Source: Acanthamoeba sp. SK_2022b
Taxonomy: Eukaryota > Discosea > Longamoebia > Acanthamoebidae
Length of the DNA: 64,000 nucleotides
NCBI GenBank assembly: GCA_027943245.1
Contig: JANDJZ010000085.1
Location: 55,808-119,807, forward strand
Direction: 5' to 3'
The notes beneath the pieces are model-generated. The model searched no databases. It had not been told where the DNA came from and worked only from the letters and a program-made list of their open reading frames with translations. Of the stretch, positions 4,861-12,409 are shown one piece after another. Position 1 is the first letter of the stretch, and the number at the start of each line of letters is the position of its first letter. The position numbers were made by a program, and so were the translations under genes.

Positions 4861-4917
4861 ATGCAACTCGTTGGGGATTCTATCATCTGCTTCGCCAACT
4901 TGAAAACAACAACATGA
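4861..4917 (+). promoter_or_regulatory. Upstream ORF whose stop overlaps the next start codon (ATGA)
   Basis: An 18-codon ORF starting MQLVGDSIICF ends in TGA at 4915-4917, overlapping the ATG at 4914 in the form ATGA. If the transcript begins upstream of 4861, ribosomes would have to terminate and restart or leaky-scan to reach the zinc-knuckle ORF. This arrangement is seen in the sequence; the regulatory role is inference. Confidence 0.4.
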
Positions 4918-5648
4918 GCAACAACAACGTCAACCAGAAGGCTTCCTCGACTGCCGACCAGAGGTGCTGGCTTTGCAACTCAGCTCACCACCTGGCCACC
5001 CGCTGCGAGGACAGGTGTCGCAACGTTCGCTGCGCCGCTCTCAAGCTGCGCACGCACTCGTGGGCTGAGTGTCCATTCAAGACGCAGCCCTTCTGCCAGC
5101 TATGCGGCGAGACTGGTCACACTGTGTTTGCGCGCGACTGCATCCACCGATGTCACGCACACGACAAGTGGGTCCACCTCATCCAGGACTGCCCTACCCG
5201 GTGCGACGATTGCGGCGCCAAGGGTCACAGGGCGCGATCGCAGGTGTGCTCTCTGAAGAGGGATCGACGGCCCAAGAATCTCCTCGACGTTGCCGCCTTC
5301 AAGGTTCTCGTGCCCGTGCCAGCGCAGGAGGTACCTCCACGACCTGTCCAGACACCGATCGCCAAGGTAACTTCTACCGAAGCTACGAAGCGATCTCAAC
5401 AGCAGGCTAAGCAGCAAAAGCAGCACGCGGCCGAGAGGAAGGAAGGAGAGGAACGGAGTATTAAGAAGGAGAAGGAAGAGAAGATGAAGCAAGCGCTGGC
5501 AGATCTGGAGAAGGAAAAGGAGCGTCTTCTGAAGGAGCTAGTGCAGCTCCAGTCAGAGGAAGCGGGCCTGCCGCCACAGAAAAAGCCCTTGGGCCATCGC
5601 GAGCTTGCGCAGGTGGGCCGGAAGACCCTCAAACAGTCGCGTGGATGA
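4914..5648 (+). CDS. CCHC zinc-knuckle protein with C-terminal coiled coil
   Basis: Single exon, 244 residues. The N-terminal 110 residues carry repeated Cys/His blocks: CWLCNSAHHLATRC, CRNVRCAAL with a following H and C, CQLCGETGHTVFARDC, and CDDCGAKGHRARSQVC. These are CCHC zinc knuckles as in RNA- or single-stranded nucleic-acid-binding proteins. A proline-rich linker leads to a highly charged helix (about 155-225) rich in Lys, Glu and Gln that should form a coiled coil. There is no retroelement Gag, protease or RT context, so a cellular RNA-binding role is more likely; the target is unknown. It is preceded by a short uORF overlapping the start. Confidence 0.75.
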   Translation: MSNNNVNQKASSTADQRCWLCNSAHHLATRCEDRCRNVRCAALKLRTHSWAECPFKTQPFCQLCGETGHTVFARDCIHRCHAHDKWVHLIQDCPTRCDDCGAKGHRARSQVCSLKRDRRPKNLLDVAAFKVLVPVPAQEVPPRPVQTPIAKVTSTEATKRSQQQAKQQKQHAAERKEGEERSIKKEKEEKMKQALADLEKEKERLLKELVQLQSEEAGLPPQKKPLGHRELAQVGRKTLKQSRG

Positions 5649-6000: not shown

Positions 6001-9000
6001 ATGGGCAACGAGCACTCCAAGCCGCGCCGACGGCGGTTCCCCGTCGCGACCGAGGCTGAGCCTGCCAAACAGCCACCGGCAGCACGGCATCGGCAACGGA
6101 GGCAGCAACGGGACAGCGTCATTCTGGAGGAGGGGTGGGTCATCGTAGACGACGGCAACCCTGGGGACCGCAACTCTGGCCGCTCTGGTCGTGTTCTTCA
6201 CGACATGAGACAGCCTGACAGCGAGGCTGAACACGACGACGGCGAACTGCAGAAGAAGAAAGGCAAGGAAAAGCAAGAGAAGGTGAAGAGTCCAGCACCG
6301 GAGGAGCCTTGCCAACATGCTGGTGGGAAAGCTGATCATCGACACAAGGCTATCAACGGCGACATCATGAATATGGACAAGCTGCTCCAGGGAGACGACC
6401 CGATAGTGGGCGATGATGCTGCCGAGCCTGGCGCTACAGCGGAGAAGAAGGGCAAGCGGAAGGAATCCAAGGTCATGAAGAAGGGACGCAAGAAAGACAA
6501 AAAGAAGAAGGGAAAACAATCCCACAAGAAGAAGGCTAAGGGGAACAGCCTGGCAGTGGGGATAGCACTCGACGGCGGTGGCGGCAGCAGGGAGGACGGC
6601 GGAGCCCACAATGTGGTTCACAAGGAATACGACGACCTTCCCGATCTCGTGGCCGAGTTTGATGAGGCCAATCCCGGACCAGTGCGGATCGACAACGCTG
6701 CCGATGTCGAGAAGCACCCTCACATCAGAGCGGCCGCACTCGAAGAAGAACGAAAAGAGAAAGCGAAGGAAGGGAAGGAGGAGTTCGACATTATTTTCGC
6801 GCAAGAGGAAGAGGATAAGGCAGAGAGGGAGGAGAAGGCTGAGGAAGGCTTAGAGCAAGCCGTTCTTCCAGCCCCGCTACCCGCTAGGTCGGACGGCGAA
6901 GGCCTGGAGAGGGAAGTCGAGGACGTGGACGATGCCTTCATCGACCGATATCTCGCCCAGCTCTGCGAGCCGGAGGTGGGTGCCGCGAAGGAGGAACAGA
7001 AGGAGCAGACCTGTATTTCGTGCGCCCGCCACTACCCTGCCGCCTCTCCGGTAGCGCGAGGCCCCTTAATCGATTGTGCTGTGCTGTGCTGTGCTGTGCT
7101 GTGCTGTGCTGTGCTGTGCTGTGCTGTGCTGTGCGTTTTCGCGAACTGACTTTCCAATCTGACGGTTGGGTGTGTGCTTGCGCGAAGGCGTTCTATCCGC
7201 TGGCCAATTGTTCGCACGCCTACTGCATCGACTGTCTGTATAACCATCTGGAGCAGCAATTGATACGCATGGAGGCGGAGAGCAACGCCGAACCGTCCGG
7301 GAAGGGCAAGGAGGCCGAAGCCGACATCGGCTTTGAAGATGAGTGGGCAGCGGCCGAGAAGCACGAGCGGCTACGTAAAAACGGCGACAGATCTAATGAC
7401 GGCGGCAATAGCAGCAGCAAGAACAAGGATCTCGCCTTCAAGTTCGTGTGCCCTCACCCGACGTGCGGTTCCGTGATTTCCATCGACGACCTCAAAGCCG
7501 GCTTCGATGTGTTCGGCATCCTGCTCGCCAAGGAGATCCAGGAGAGTGGCATAGTCGAGGACGACGCTGGTACACCCGTGTTGGATGAGAAGCCTCAACC
7601 AGAAGCGGGCGAGTCTTCCGGCGTGTGTGACCAATCGGTCGACGTAGGCGGCAACGAGCTGGACGGGAGCATGGTCGAAATTGACCTGGCGGACCAACCT
7701 CGCGAGAACGAAGACCCGGCTGGCCTGCGTCCCGACGGTGATGCCGAACAAGCCACGCTCAAGCGGGGCAACAAGCTGTCAAACTCGCTCAGGCTGTTCC
7801 TGGAGAACAACGAGGGCTACGTCCTGTGTCCCAACGAGAGCTGCGGGATGATCTTCGAGCACCTGCCGCCGACGGCCGAGGAGAAGGCCTACATGAAGAA
7901 GCAGCGGCCCGTGGACAACGACGGCGAACCAATCCAGGGCGATGCGCTGGAGCACTACTTTGATAAGCGATTCCGCTGTCGCGACTGCGACACCGTTTTC
8001 TGCTCCGAGTGCAAGGTCGTTCCCTACCACCCGGGCTTCACATGCGCCGACTACAAGAGCTACCTCGTCGCCCAGGTTTCCTCACTTGGCTTGTTTGATT
8101 TTGCCCACGCGCGCTCTCCCTGTTCGGTTCGTCTCAAGCTCTCTCTCTCTCTCTCTGCCTCCGTGGGAGCAGCATTGCTTTGCGTGCGACAAGGTGCTGC
8201 GCGGGAACGTCTTGCCGTACCTCCCGGAGGACTTCATCGTGCGTGACGATGCCACCGAGGGCAAGACGGGAGGCAACGATGGCGAGTTGTCGTTAGAGGA
8301 CGCCGACAAGGGCAAGGAGAAGGACAACGAGGGTGGCGGCGGCGAGGCCGAGGCCGCAGAAGCGCAGCGCTTCAAGCCGGTCTTCCGCCAGTTCGAGAAG
8401 CAACTGCCCGAGGTCAAGGAGGTCCCGGGGATCTTTTTCTGGAAGAAGCGGCGGCTTCTCAAGGAGCGGCAACAACTCGAGCTGGAGAAGCGAGAGCACG
8501 AGCGACGGGAGGGGGCGCGCGTCGCGCTCGAGATGATCGAGTACGAGACACTGCGCAGGCAGATTGAAGACCAACGCCTCGCCGAACGCAAGCTGCGCGA
8601 ACAGAAGCACGCGCAGGAGCTCGAGGAGAGGCGCAAGCGCAAGCGGGTCGAGATCCTCGAGCGGCTGCGCGATGGAGAGGTGGCCGACGTGTCGGCCGTA
8701 TACGTGTGCGAGCGAGCCGAGTGCAGGCGCGAGGTAGAGAAGCGGTGCCTGTGGAAGCACAAGGAGTGCGGTCACCCGTGTCACGGAGTCTACAACGAGC
8801 AGACCTGCCTGCGCTGCCTCTACCCGGCCTGTGCCGGAGATGGGTACCTCTTTCTCTTCTGATGTGAAGTGCTGGCCGTTGCTGTGTTGTCTCACTCGCT
8901 AATGGGCACACATGCAGACAAACCAAGGACGACTACTGCAACATCTGTTGGGTAGAGGACCTTGGCTCGAAGCCGAGTGTCGCGCTTGGTAAATACGCCT

Positions 9001-10350
9001 CTCCTTATTTGCGTGTGCGGTCCGTAACACAACCGAATGAGCCCAACGCTTACTCGGGGGGGGGGGCGTGACAACACACAACACAACGTACAGAGACGTG
9101 CGGGCACATCTTCCATCTGGACTGTCTGTTGAAGAAGATCGAGGCGGGCTGGCCCACGGCAGTGATCTCCTTCGCCTTCCTTGACTGCCCGCTCTGCAAC
9201 GAGCGACTCTCACATCCGCTCCTGGCCCCCTACCTCAAGCCGTTCCTTGAGTTGGAAGAGTATCTGAGCAAGCTGGCCATAGAGGTACGACACAGCCAAC
9301 GACACGACACGACACGACACGACACGACACGACACGACACGACACGACACGACACGACACGACACGACACGACACGACACGACACGACACGACACGAGGC
9401 TATGCTCACTGGACTTCCTTTGGCAGCGCCTGGAGATGGAGGGCATGAAGAACGACCCCGGGGCAAAGGAGAATCCGGCCAAGTACGCCATCAACACCTT
9501 CGCCTTCTACCTCTGCTACCAGTGCAAGGCACCCTACTTTGGTGGAAAGAAGGTATCTCCCCCTCCTCCGAGCTCGCGCTCAGGTTCGTTAAACATATAT
9601 TAATTTATAATTTATTATAAATTTTTTATTATTTGCAATTCAGGAGTGTGGGAGGATGGCGGGGGACGGCGGCGGAGACGGCGGCGCAGGCGGGCCCGCG
9701 CCTGCGTTCGATCCAAAGGAGCTCATCTGCGGAGCCTGCAGCAATACAGTGGGCCAAGCCGCGTGCCGGTACCCACTTCTCCTCGGCACCCGTGTTGGTG
9801 CGCGACTAACGACGCGAATCATCGCGTCTCCCAGCGTGCACGGCGATGCATACATGGAATGGAAGTGTCGCTTCTGCTGTGCACTGGCTACCTACTTCTG
9901 CGGCGGCAAGGCCCGCTTCTGCAATCCCTGTCACGGCTCCGTACGTTTTTTATTATTTTATTATTTTATTATTTTATTATTTATTATTATTTTATAACAT
10001 TATTATTTTATTATTTTATTACTTTTTAATTTGTGGCTGACTGGTGTTCGTTCCTGCAGCCCGGCGAGCGGGTTGAGTTTGTCAATTGGCGAACGCTGGA
10101 CACGTACAAGGCACCGCCGTGCAGCGGCGCAGCCTCGTGCCCATTACACGTCGACCACCCACCAAACGGCACCGAGGTACATCGTGCGCTACGTAACGCT
10201 CATTCACGCACAGGCCTGCTCACGCTTCTCAAACCTCATCTGTTTATTATTATTATTATTATTATTATTTCATATTTCAAGGAGTTCTGCTTGGGATGTT
10301 CGATGTGCAAGACCTCCGGTTTCCGATTCGAGCCCGCTCCGCCAACATGA
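6001..10350 (+). CDS. Hybrid E3 ubiquitin ligase: RBR-like RING1-IBR plus MYCBP2/PHR-type RING and tandem-cysteine (RING-Cys-relay) region
   Basis: About 1,130 residues over about nine exons. The start MGNEHSKPRRRR is preferred because it gives an N-myristoylation consensus next to basic residues. Residues 20-335 are charged and low-complexity. RING1 (from about 337) reads CISC, CSHAYCIDC and CPHPTC; the IBR (about 564-632) reads CPNESC, CRDC, FCSECK and HPGFTC. A charged coiled coil and a CERAEC...CGHPCHG...CLRCLYPAC cysteine block follow. Next is a RING (DYCNICWVEDLGSKP, CGHIFHLDC, CPLCNERLSH) and a tandem-cysteine region: YLCYQCKAPYFGGKK, ECGRM, DPKELICGACS, WKCRFCC, TYFCGGKARFCNPCHG, CPLHVDHPPNGTE, EFCLGCSMCKT. 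This last part follows the C-terminus of human MYCBP2 block by block, including the E2-to-threonine relay cysteines. Introns 7051-7187, 9285-9430 and 9941-10059 carry simple repeats. No RBR RING2 is seen. Confidence 0.88.
7076..7134. repeat. (GTGCT)n pentanucleotide array
   Basis: Nearly 12 perfect GTGCT units inside the intron that interrupts RING1 of the E3 ligase. The same unit recurs at 10431-10485. Confidence 0.95.
9301..9396. repeat. (GACAC)n pentanucleotide array
   Basis: About 19 perfect GACAC units in the intron between the RING and tandem-cysteine exons (donor GTACGA at 9285, acceptor TTTGGCAG at about 9430). Confidence 0.95.
9951..10026. repeat. T/A-rich TTATT/TTTTA array
   Basis: Imperfect TTATT and TATTTTA repeats filling most of the intron after the catalytic CHG exon. 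A second (ATT)n run lies at 10244-10269 in the next intron. Confidence 0.9.
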
Positions 10351-10402: not shown

Positions 10403-12409
10403 TCAATGCACAAACCCTTCACTTGTCGCTGTGCTGTGCTGTGCTGTGCTGTGCTGTGCTGTGCTGTGCTGTGCTGTGCTGTGCTCTCGCTGCAGTCCTC
10501 CGCCGATGCGCGGTCCGGAGTCGGCACGGGCGGGAAACCAGACGGACGCTTGCCGCTTGGCCGCGCTGCTCACCTTCCGCTCGCCACACGGCCGAGCGAA
10601 GCAGGCCACGCACAGCGACAGTCGTCGTTCGCGCCTGTCTTCATCGCCACCGCCACCGCCACCGCCGTCGCCGTCGCCCTCGTCAACCTCGGGAGGCACG
10701 CCGAGCCACGCCCTCCTCACTCCGCACAGGGCACATGTGGGCGGCGGGTCTCGCGCAGAGAACCGCAAGGCTCCCGCCGAGTGACGGCACCAGCGAAAGA
10801 AGTGCTCCCACTCGGCGAAGGAGGGGTAGGGCGGCGTCGCGACGGCGTCGAGCCGGTGAGCGACGACGGTGAGCACGCGGCCCCCGCCCACGATGCTGGC
10901 GTCGTCGAGCGCGGCGAAGCGGCCCAGCTTCGGGCAGGCGGCAAAGGTCTCAACCGGGATCGGCTTCTGCAGGAGAATGCCCACCACGACCCGTCGCCCT
11001 ATCTACACTCGCCGCCGCCGCCACGGCCACGTTCAGCATCAGGCCATGGCCAGGCGCCAACTTCAGTCGACTTGGCTGGCGTGCGTACGGCGATGGCGGG
11101 CGAGGCTGGCTGAAACCACTTCCTTGCCTTCGGGTCCCACTCGCGCACCACCTCGACGATCTTGCCCACGCTGCGCCCTGGAACGACCAAACACGTAAGC
11201 ACCCACCGCACGCACACACACACACGGGGGCCGAGGACCAGGAGTTGCCGCGCGAGCGGGGCGGGAGGTGGCGATGCGAAGCGGCGATCGAGGTACCGGT
11301 CGGGAACTGCAGCAGGGGCGAGTAGCCCAGCCTTCTGACCATCGGCCGCGTTCTCGCAGGGTGGCATCGCAGTGACATGTGCGTCGACCTTGCCCGATTG
11401 ATTGCCAGGGTAAAACAGCGCGCATGTGTCGTGCTGCGTTAAGACAAGCAGCATCACGTACCGCGGGTAGAACCCGAACATGGCGATGATGAAGGTGACC
11501 GGGCGCACGTCAGCGTTGACGTCGCAGATCAAGCCGTGCCGCCATCGATACACCTGGCCCATCCACGAGCGATCATTACCGCATTCCATTCGAGCCCGCC
11601 CGCCCACTACCAGATAGAGGGGGAGAGAAAGCGGACTGGCTTCTTCAGATCCGACGTGGAGCAGGTCCATCCCTGGGGGAGCAGCTCCGCAGCATTGCCT
11701 GCTCGGCAGTAAGTGGGCTTGGATCGACCAGCGCTGCAAAGATAGAGGGAGGGAGGGAGAGGAGTGGGGACGGACCGGCGGTGACGCTCTTCTCCACCCT
11801 CCGCCCGATCTCGAAGCTCGCGGCCTGGATGTGGATGCCGCCGTGGCGCAGGGCCGCCGGCAACGACGTGGCCTCGTCGTCGGTGTAGCGCGCCGCGGCA
11901 GAGTCGTAGGCCAGCGACTGGAGCGGAACGCAGGGAACGAACTTGAGTTGCTGCCCCCGTTTCAACAGTCCCTGAATCACCTGCCCCGTGAACACCACCT
12001 CATCACCTACGCTCTCTCGCACACAGCCGGTGGTGAGCGGTCCGCTTCCCTAGCGACGACTTCCTGTAGTGGAGGAGGGCACCTCGGGCGCGGATGTTGG
12101 AGACGGTCATGCGTGGCGCCCTGTAGAGGCAGGGGAGGGCCTTCAACGCGGCGCACTCCCGCTCGATGACTTCCCACAACGACGGCCCATTGGCGTACAC
12201 ATTTCTGCCCCCAATAACAAGTCAGGCTGTGGAGTCTGGCAGAGGCCGGTCGGGGCCAGTTCGTTACACGCAAGGGCGGCGTGCCTTAGATCGTTCTTGT
12301 CCCAGGGGATCGTGTGGGCCTTGCTCAGATCGAGGATATCCGAACGCGTGCTCACATAGTCTGCTCAGCGGGGCTCAATACCCCACCGACATGCACACAA
12401 ACCAGGACA

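Follow-up and report, generated by a model that had tools for sequence, protein, structure and literature searches.

Gene structure and product at the locus

The window analysed here is a stretch of 64,000 nucleotides from Acanthamoeba sp. SK_2022b (contig JANDJZ010000085.1, positions 55,808 to 119,807) with a G+C content of 57%; the genome has a size of 44.9 Mb. On the + strand, positions 6001-10350 hold a gene of 10 exons whose product of 1137 amino acids joins the RING1 and IBR domains of parkin-like RBR ubiquitin ligases to a zinc module and a complete RING-Cys-relay (RCR) unit resembling the catalytic end of the nerve-cell enzyme MYCBP2. All nine introns are GT-AG and their phases match. 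The start ATG at 6001 and the stop codon ending at 10350 are exactly those given in a preliminary description of this DNA, whose motifs CISC, CSHAYCIDC, CPHPTC, CPNESC, CRDC, FCSECK, and HPGFTC all lie within the 1137-residue product. A second in-frame ATG is present upstream of 6001; the relatives P0001-P0003 start with MGN, the same as the product of the ATG at 6001. The N-terminus MGNEHSKP (6001-6024) is a candidate N-myristoylation start, and the MGN start common to these relatives suggests possible membrane anchoring.

According to the exon model, exon 1 (6001-7050) encodes the MGN start, a charged low-complexity N-terminal region, and the first half of RING1, beginning with CISC at amino acids 338-341. 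RING1 (7012-7466; CISC...CSHAYCIDC...CPHPTC) is split by the intron at 7051-7187 and is thus encoded across exons 1 and 2; it was identified by its motifs, the family profile, and fold matches of the models of two relatives. Exon 2 (7188-8075) carries the second half of RING1, a linker, and the complete IBR domain (7785-8045, amino acids 550-636). Exon 3 (8173-8843) contains a CxxC (8176-8187), an acidic and coiled linker, and already the beginning of the zinc module on the RCR side, which the alignment places at 8707-8817 (CERAEC...C...CGHPC.G...CLRC). Exon 4 (8918-8988) holds the start of the RING-H2 of the RCR unit (8937-9197, amino acids 877-928; profile and structure matches, alignment), which is split by the intron at 8989-9093 and has I879 at its E2-contact position. 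Exons 5 (9094-9284) and 6 (9427-9552) follow, and the tandem-cysteine (TC) domain (9514-10308, amino acids 987-1124; MYCBP2 match, alignment) is likewise split by introns. By alignment, the upstream relay cysteine C1001 (9647-9649, equivalent to MYCBP2 C4520) and E1025 (9719-9721) are encoded in exon 7 (9644-9768), and the downstream relay cysteine C1063 (9899-9901, equivalent to C4572) and H1074 (9932-9934, equivalent to H4583) in exon 8 (9835-9940). Exon 9 (10060-10176) and exon 10 (10282-10350, including the stop codon) complete the gene.

Relatives were collected in two profile searches, from which the best 120 of 233 and the best 120 of 273 matches were kept, giving 174 proteins. IBR and RCR are joined in 156 of the 174; since the IBR was part of the search profiles and each list was the best 120, this fraction should not be read as an unbiased frequency. 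The uninterrupted frame of P0001 (1151 amino acids, no intron), in a source whose longest contig is 3650 nt, indicates that its source sequence is probably cDNA. P0001 is 71% identical to the window protein over amino acids 340-1137 and 66% identical across the entire alignment, which is gap-free at all nine exon junctions of the window gene. P0003 and P0005 carry TRINITY transcriptome names, and both have the same joined domain order. Two further loci of the same genome, L015 and L016, encode RING1, IBR, zinc module, RING, and TC domain in identical order. Searching the whole genome with the RCR region gave at least 17 exon-level matches (E 0.01), which among the matches listed fall at the window gene, L015, and L016; this search scores only the best candidates, so the counts are a lower bound.

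These comparisons bear on whether two adjacent genes have been read as one. The RING1-IBR and the RCR side are separated by one splice only, intron 2 (8076-8172; GT-AG, phase 0; contiguous in P0001), which is flanked by large exons. It is a single intron of 97 bp between the IBR exon and exon 3, in a gene structure predicted from genomic DNA. However, the joined order recurs in the intron-less P0001, in the TRINITY-named P0003 and P0005, at the two other loci of the genome, and in the 156 relatives with both parts. We give the two-gene explanation next to no chance; it is already contradicted, and we rejected it on the exon model and on the order in P0001, P0003, P0005, L015, and L016. The preliminary description had proposed a single polypeptide, which would have failed had the joined order been absent from all relatives; exon model, P0001 junctions, paralogues, and relatives all agree with it.

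RING1 and IBR are present and a RING2 is not found

The IBR of the window protein scores 32.3 bits against a Pfam cut-off of 24.3 (PF01485, E 1e-7) and 38.6 bits in the genome scan; Pfam IBR is found in 45 of 69 relatives (E 0.001). Neither RING of the window protein is scored above cut-off by a Pfam RING model; three of these models also list a second stretch, at E ≤ 1. A profile of the 69 relatives matched the RING1-IBR of HOIL-1 (6.8e-12) and ARIH2 (8.1e-12) in the PDB and, more weakly, RNF216, HOIP, and Cullin-9; among the weaker matches was one non-RBR protein, RAD5 (4.2e-7). Models of two relatives match RBR folds at RING1 and IBR in Foldseek and in VIA-align, the latter re-examining Foldseek matches only. 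An AlphaFold2 model built on six rows was poor for the TC domain (pLDDT 65, pTM 0.39); one built on 69 rows was good. RING1 and IBR are genuine RBR modules, as their motifs had led the preliminary description to propose.

With respect to RBR ligases, of which HOIL-1 (RBCK1), ARIH2, and RNF216 are the nearest, the window protein has the same RING1-IBR order and folds; however, no RING2/Rcat was found, and the RCR unit stands at that place. Pfam detected no family of the RING2 type in the window protein (E 1) or in the 69 relatives (E 0.001). As a positive control, the partial RING2 CPKCGKPVEKNGGCNH of L001 matched Pfam IBR_1 (4e-4) and IBR_2 (6e-4). A pattern for the start of RING2 matches the control and is absent between the IBR and the RCR RING of the window protein; it matches 3 of the 156 relatives (P0014, P0055, and P0073), the matches in P0014 and P0055 falling inside the CGxC...CLPC motif of the zinc module. 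On these Pfam and pattern searches we rejected a remnant RING2, which supports the preliminary description, where no RING2 was visible.

L001 is another IBR locus of this genome, with its RING2 start at about 1908-1955. By this sequence the genome would seem to encode one or more classical RBR ligases as well.

The relay region and its catalytic residues

Amino acids 871-1126 of the window protein match the MYCBP2 structure 5o6c (E 1.2e-56), and amino acids 870-1126 match 6t7f (E 2e-56). The family profile finds the MYCBP2 RCR region in the PDB at 3e-109. The RCR alignment comprises 176 sequences, namely the 174 retrieved proteins, the window protein, and MYCBP2; residue numbers other than C4520 were obtained by counting along it. 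The equivalent of C4520 is Cys in 176/176, and those of C4572 and H4583 are kept in 175/175, one further sequence being gapped there. The position of E4534 is more variable (Glu in 112, Asp in 39, His in 22, Tyr in one, and two not itemised); the window protein has Glu here (E1025) and His at the H4583 position. We take H4583 and E4534 to be catalytic residues of the esterification site, and the roles of the individual residues are likewise assumed. The window protein thus has what defines an RCR ligase, a RING followed by a tandem-cysteine domain with two relay cysteines, together with the catalytic His and Glu. For MYCBP2, PMC9527308 gives an account of the relay and of its Cys-His-Glu site, and the mutants C4520S and C4520A are catalytically inactive according to passages of PMC12664034 and PMC11336912.

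The preliminary description had placed a relay region where RING2 would be; this is supported, and the region is complete. Its second RING is present as well but belongs to the RCR unit instead of being added on its own, and it lies behind a Cys-rich module shared with animal MYCBP2-type proteins. The zinc module had no fold match of its own among the Foldseek matches.

The residue after the C1063 equivalent is Trp in 152 sequences, Phe in 16, Gly in six, and Ala in one (n = 175), MYCBP2 having Phe. It is Gly in the window protein, P0001, and P0003, Ala in P0002 and L015, and Trp in L016. Presumably the Phe following the second relay cysteine lines a hydrophobic pocket in MYCBP2; if it does, the pocket would stand open in the window enzyme, which may then act on other hydroxyls. 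The replacement by Gly of a residue that is bulky (Trp or Phe) in 168/175 predicts a changed preference for hydroxyl substrates. In a passage of PMC9527308, the preference of MYCBP2 for Thr is attributed to a hydrophobic pocket at the catalytic site.

Distribution among eukaryotes

The joined order occurs in Amoebozoa, Discoba, a metamonad, ciliates, a rhizarian, and a cryptophyte. Taxonomy was looked up for six species, and the higher-group placement of the remaining named species is our assumption. All 22 tabulated named protist proteins have IBR, RING, and TC domain, and the RING1 pattern fits 17 of them. The other five are four from Paramecium and an Acytostelium model with an IBR that starts at residue 2. 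The same domain order was thus found in other amoebozoans, where the preliminary description had suggested looking for it, and beyond them. Its suggestion of an amoebozoan-specific class fails on the occurrences in Discoba, Metamonada, ciliates, Rhizaria, and Cryptophyceae, and an amoebozoan-only origin was rejected for the same reason.

Among the 18 relatives without IBR, 13 are short (245-362 amino acids) and have the zinc module or RING within their first 60 residues, which leaves no room for an IBR. The other five (P0156, P0163, P0165, P0172, and P0174) have long upstream sequences.

UniRef uses the name 'RCR-type E3 ubiquitin transferase' for proteins of dictyostelids, Naegleria, and Anaeramoeba, and the automatic name 'highwire' occurs in Balamuthia; databases therefore recognise the catalytic end. 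Proteins so named have the RING1-IBR-Zn-RING-TC order of the window protein, but these are database names only, and the joined architecture is undescribed in the passages of the literature searched. An NCBIfam scan of four relatives gave no family match. None of 74 pattern stretches was confirmed as a virus-encoded relative.

C2, PX, or PH domains accompany the IBR-RCR core in P0004, P0007, P0008, P0016, P0078, P0119, P0123, P0126, P0127, P0129, P0130, and P0134, hinting, from domain content, at membrane-targeted ligases. P0155, a relative of 1736 amino acids, has PF00754, PF07738, and PF22633 in addition to the core.

Relation to MYCBP2 and ancestry

In an unrooted FastTree phylogeny of the RCR, the five IBR-less proteins with long upstream sequences and human MYCBP2 form one clade with a support of 0.981. 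These five proteins keep a CxxC + CGHxC zinc module directly before the RING; in the protist family this module sits C-terminal to the IBR. The zinc-module comparison is limited to the five, the human PDB construct starting downstream of the module. By eye, P0163, P0172, and P0174 have a B-box-like Cys/His segment roughly at the position of the protist IBR.

The window protein and MYCBP2 (PAM/Highwire/RPM-1) share the RING-H2 and TC domain, both relay cysteines, and the catalytic His and Glu, and animal MYCBP2-type proteins also share the zinc module before the RING. In contrast to MYCBP2, the window protein has a RING1-IBR, and Gly in place of Phe after the second relay cysteine. A Pfam scan of it to E 1 found IBR and RING families only, with no RCC1, PHR, or APC10; RCC1-like and PHR domains in front of the RCR, the mark of PHR proteins, are therefore not found. 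The animal protein P0163 has Pfam PHR, RCC1, and APC10 (E 0.001). A PHR-domain search of this genome gave no match, and control genomes were equally without match, so that this result does not speak for an absence.

Distances between IBR sequences correlate with distances between the RCR sequences of the same proteins (r 0.57, a value reached in 0 of 2000 permutations). This comparison used 126 non-redundant proteins, which are the 131 with adequate IBR coverage, of 157 aligned, minus five at ≥90% RCR identity. The nearest neighbour by IBR and by RCR agrees in 51 of the 126, where about one is expected by chance. Correlation and neighbour agreement fit joint inheritance rather than repeated fusion.

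The distribution in very distant single-celled eukaryotes suggests that the MYCBP2 mechanism is ancient, and the breadth of the joined order makes the ancestral ligase class of the preliminary description plausible. A bolder step, to which we would not quite give even odds, is that a ligase of the last eukaryotic common ancestor used an RBR-type RING1-IBR, as a sensor of ubiquitin or a ubiquitin-like protein, to control a two-cysteine, ester-forming relay, and that MYCBP2 lost this front. If true, relay-based non-lysine ubiquitylation would belong among the founding activities of eukaryotes, instead of being an animal neuronal one, and the RBR and RCR classes would share ancestry.

Proposed mechanism

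The reading we favour, with a probability of about 0.7, is an old eukaryotic ligase family in which RING1-IBR is followed by the zinc module and a complete RCR, the RING1-IBR being regulatory and the RCR catalytic. Catalysis would most likely be carried out by the RCR core alone, through a two-cysteine relay to hydroxyls. The RING-H2 of the RCR would recruit E2~ubiquitin; C1001 would accept the ubiquitin and hand it to C1063, which acts together with H1074 and E1025, for esterification to a hydroxyl substrate. The RING1-IBR, non-catalytic, would most likely bind ubiquitin, a ubiquitin-like protein, or E2~ubiquitin and thereby control the relay or bring it into position. Ligases of the PHR type, MYCBP2 among them, would be of the same stock, with zinc module and RCR but without RING1-IBR.

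The two RINGs differ at the E2-contact position, which in both we presume from other RINGs. It is Ile, Val, or Met in the RCR RING of 176/176 sequences, whereas in RING1 it is Leu, Val, Ile, Met, or Phe in 55 of 99 domains and Ser in the window protein. Furthermore, the RING1 pattern does not fit 15 of 114 proteins, P0006 and four from Paramecium among them, several of which still resemble a RING1 by eye. The RING1-IBR of this family is, because of these three observations, unlikely to be the catalytic entry. The preliminary description had proposed a hybrid of two transthiolating ligase designs. As a mechanism, this would mean that RING1 recruits E2~ubiquitin and passes the ubiquitin to the first relay cysteine, the second RING being structural or serving a second E2. 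An E2 surface could persist on RING1, since RING1 and IBR are real RBR folds, most relatives keep the RING1 zinc ligands, and the contact residue is hydrophobic in those 55 domains. Against the hybrid stand the E2-contact residues of the two RINGs, the proteins off the RING1 pattern, the failure to find an RBR catalytic cysteine, and the RCR fragment of MYCBP2, which has its own RING without any RING1. We consider the hybrid improbable; to judge from these residues, it is likelier that the RING1-IBR forms an accessory or regulatory front end than that it drives a second transthiolation.

Alternatively, the RING1-IBR could be an adaptor that targets substrates or membranes and is unconnected to ubiquitin handling. 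The MGN start of the window protein would suit this, as would the localisation modules in front of some relatives (C2 in 8/69, PX in 1/69, PH in P0119). However, the IBR is co-inherited with the RCR, and between the window protein and P0001 it is about as conserved as the TC domain (77/87 against 132/150 residues); between the window protein and P0002 it is less conserved (47/87 against 97/150). The closest solved RING1-IBR structures also include ubiquitin-bound ones, which by their titles are HOIL-1 with linear tetra-ubiquitin and RNF216/E2-Ub/Ub. An adaptor is thus unlikely, and by analogy with the ubiquitin-bound relatives, an allosteric site for ubiquitin, a ubiquitin-like protein, or E2~ubiquitin in the RING1-IBR is the leading guess.

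Several points weigh against a regulatory front on an old relay ligase. The tree is unrooted, and which architecture is ancestral rests on distribution among the best-120 lists. We infer the role of the RING1-IBR from sequence, and with its zinc ligands mostly kept and a hydrophobic contact residue in over half of the domains, RING1 may bind E2 in some relatives. The catalytic Glu is replaced by Asp or His in many sequences, and the residue adjacent to C1063 is unlike that of MYCBP2; substrate chemistry may therefore differ.

Relation to published work

No description of a RING1-IBR joined to an RCR was found in the passages of open-licence literature searched, and one may exist elsewhere; no open-licence paper was found that treats RING-Cys-relay together with protists or Dictyostelium. 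In the passages retrieved, reviews illustrate RCR ligases by MYCBP2 (PMC13061254, PMC9527308), which one of the two links to axon biology, and one table terms MYCBP2 'RBR-like' (PMC13008643). Passages of PMC4327156 treat IBR as a RING class and contain neither 'MYCBP2' nor 'highwire'. The RBR and RCR modules are each known; the surprising part is their conserved combination, its breadth, and the position of the MYCBP2 clade. Protist ligases that share the catalytic residues of MYCBP2 and have an RBR front would put relay chemistry deep in eukaryote history. The family makes it testable whether a RING1-IBR regulates a catalytic unit other than RING2, and it offers compact proteins, such as P0027 (523 amino acids) and P0021 (575 amino acids), in comparison to the very large animal protein.

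Repeats and a neighbouring reading frame

Perfect pentanucleotide arrays are located in intron 1 (TGTGC x12, 7075-7134), in intron 5 (ACGAC x20, 9299-9397), and directly 3' of the gene (GCTGT x12, 10428-10485). Across the genome, 187 + 132 overlapping matches were counted for a TGTGC x5 pattern, and still more for its reversed control. Upstream of the gene, a single-exon reading frame at 4914-5648 encodes a CCHC zinc knuckle (Pfam zf-CCHC_6).

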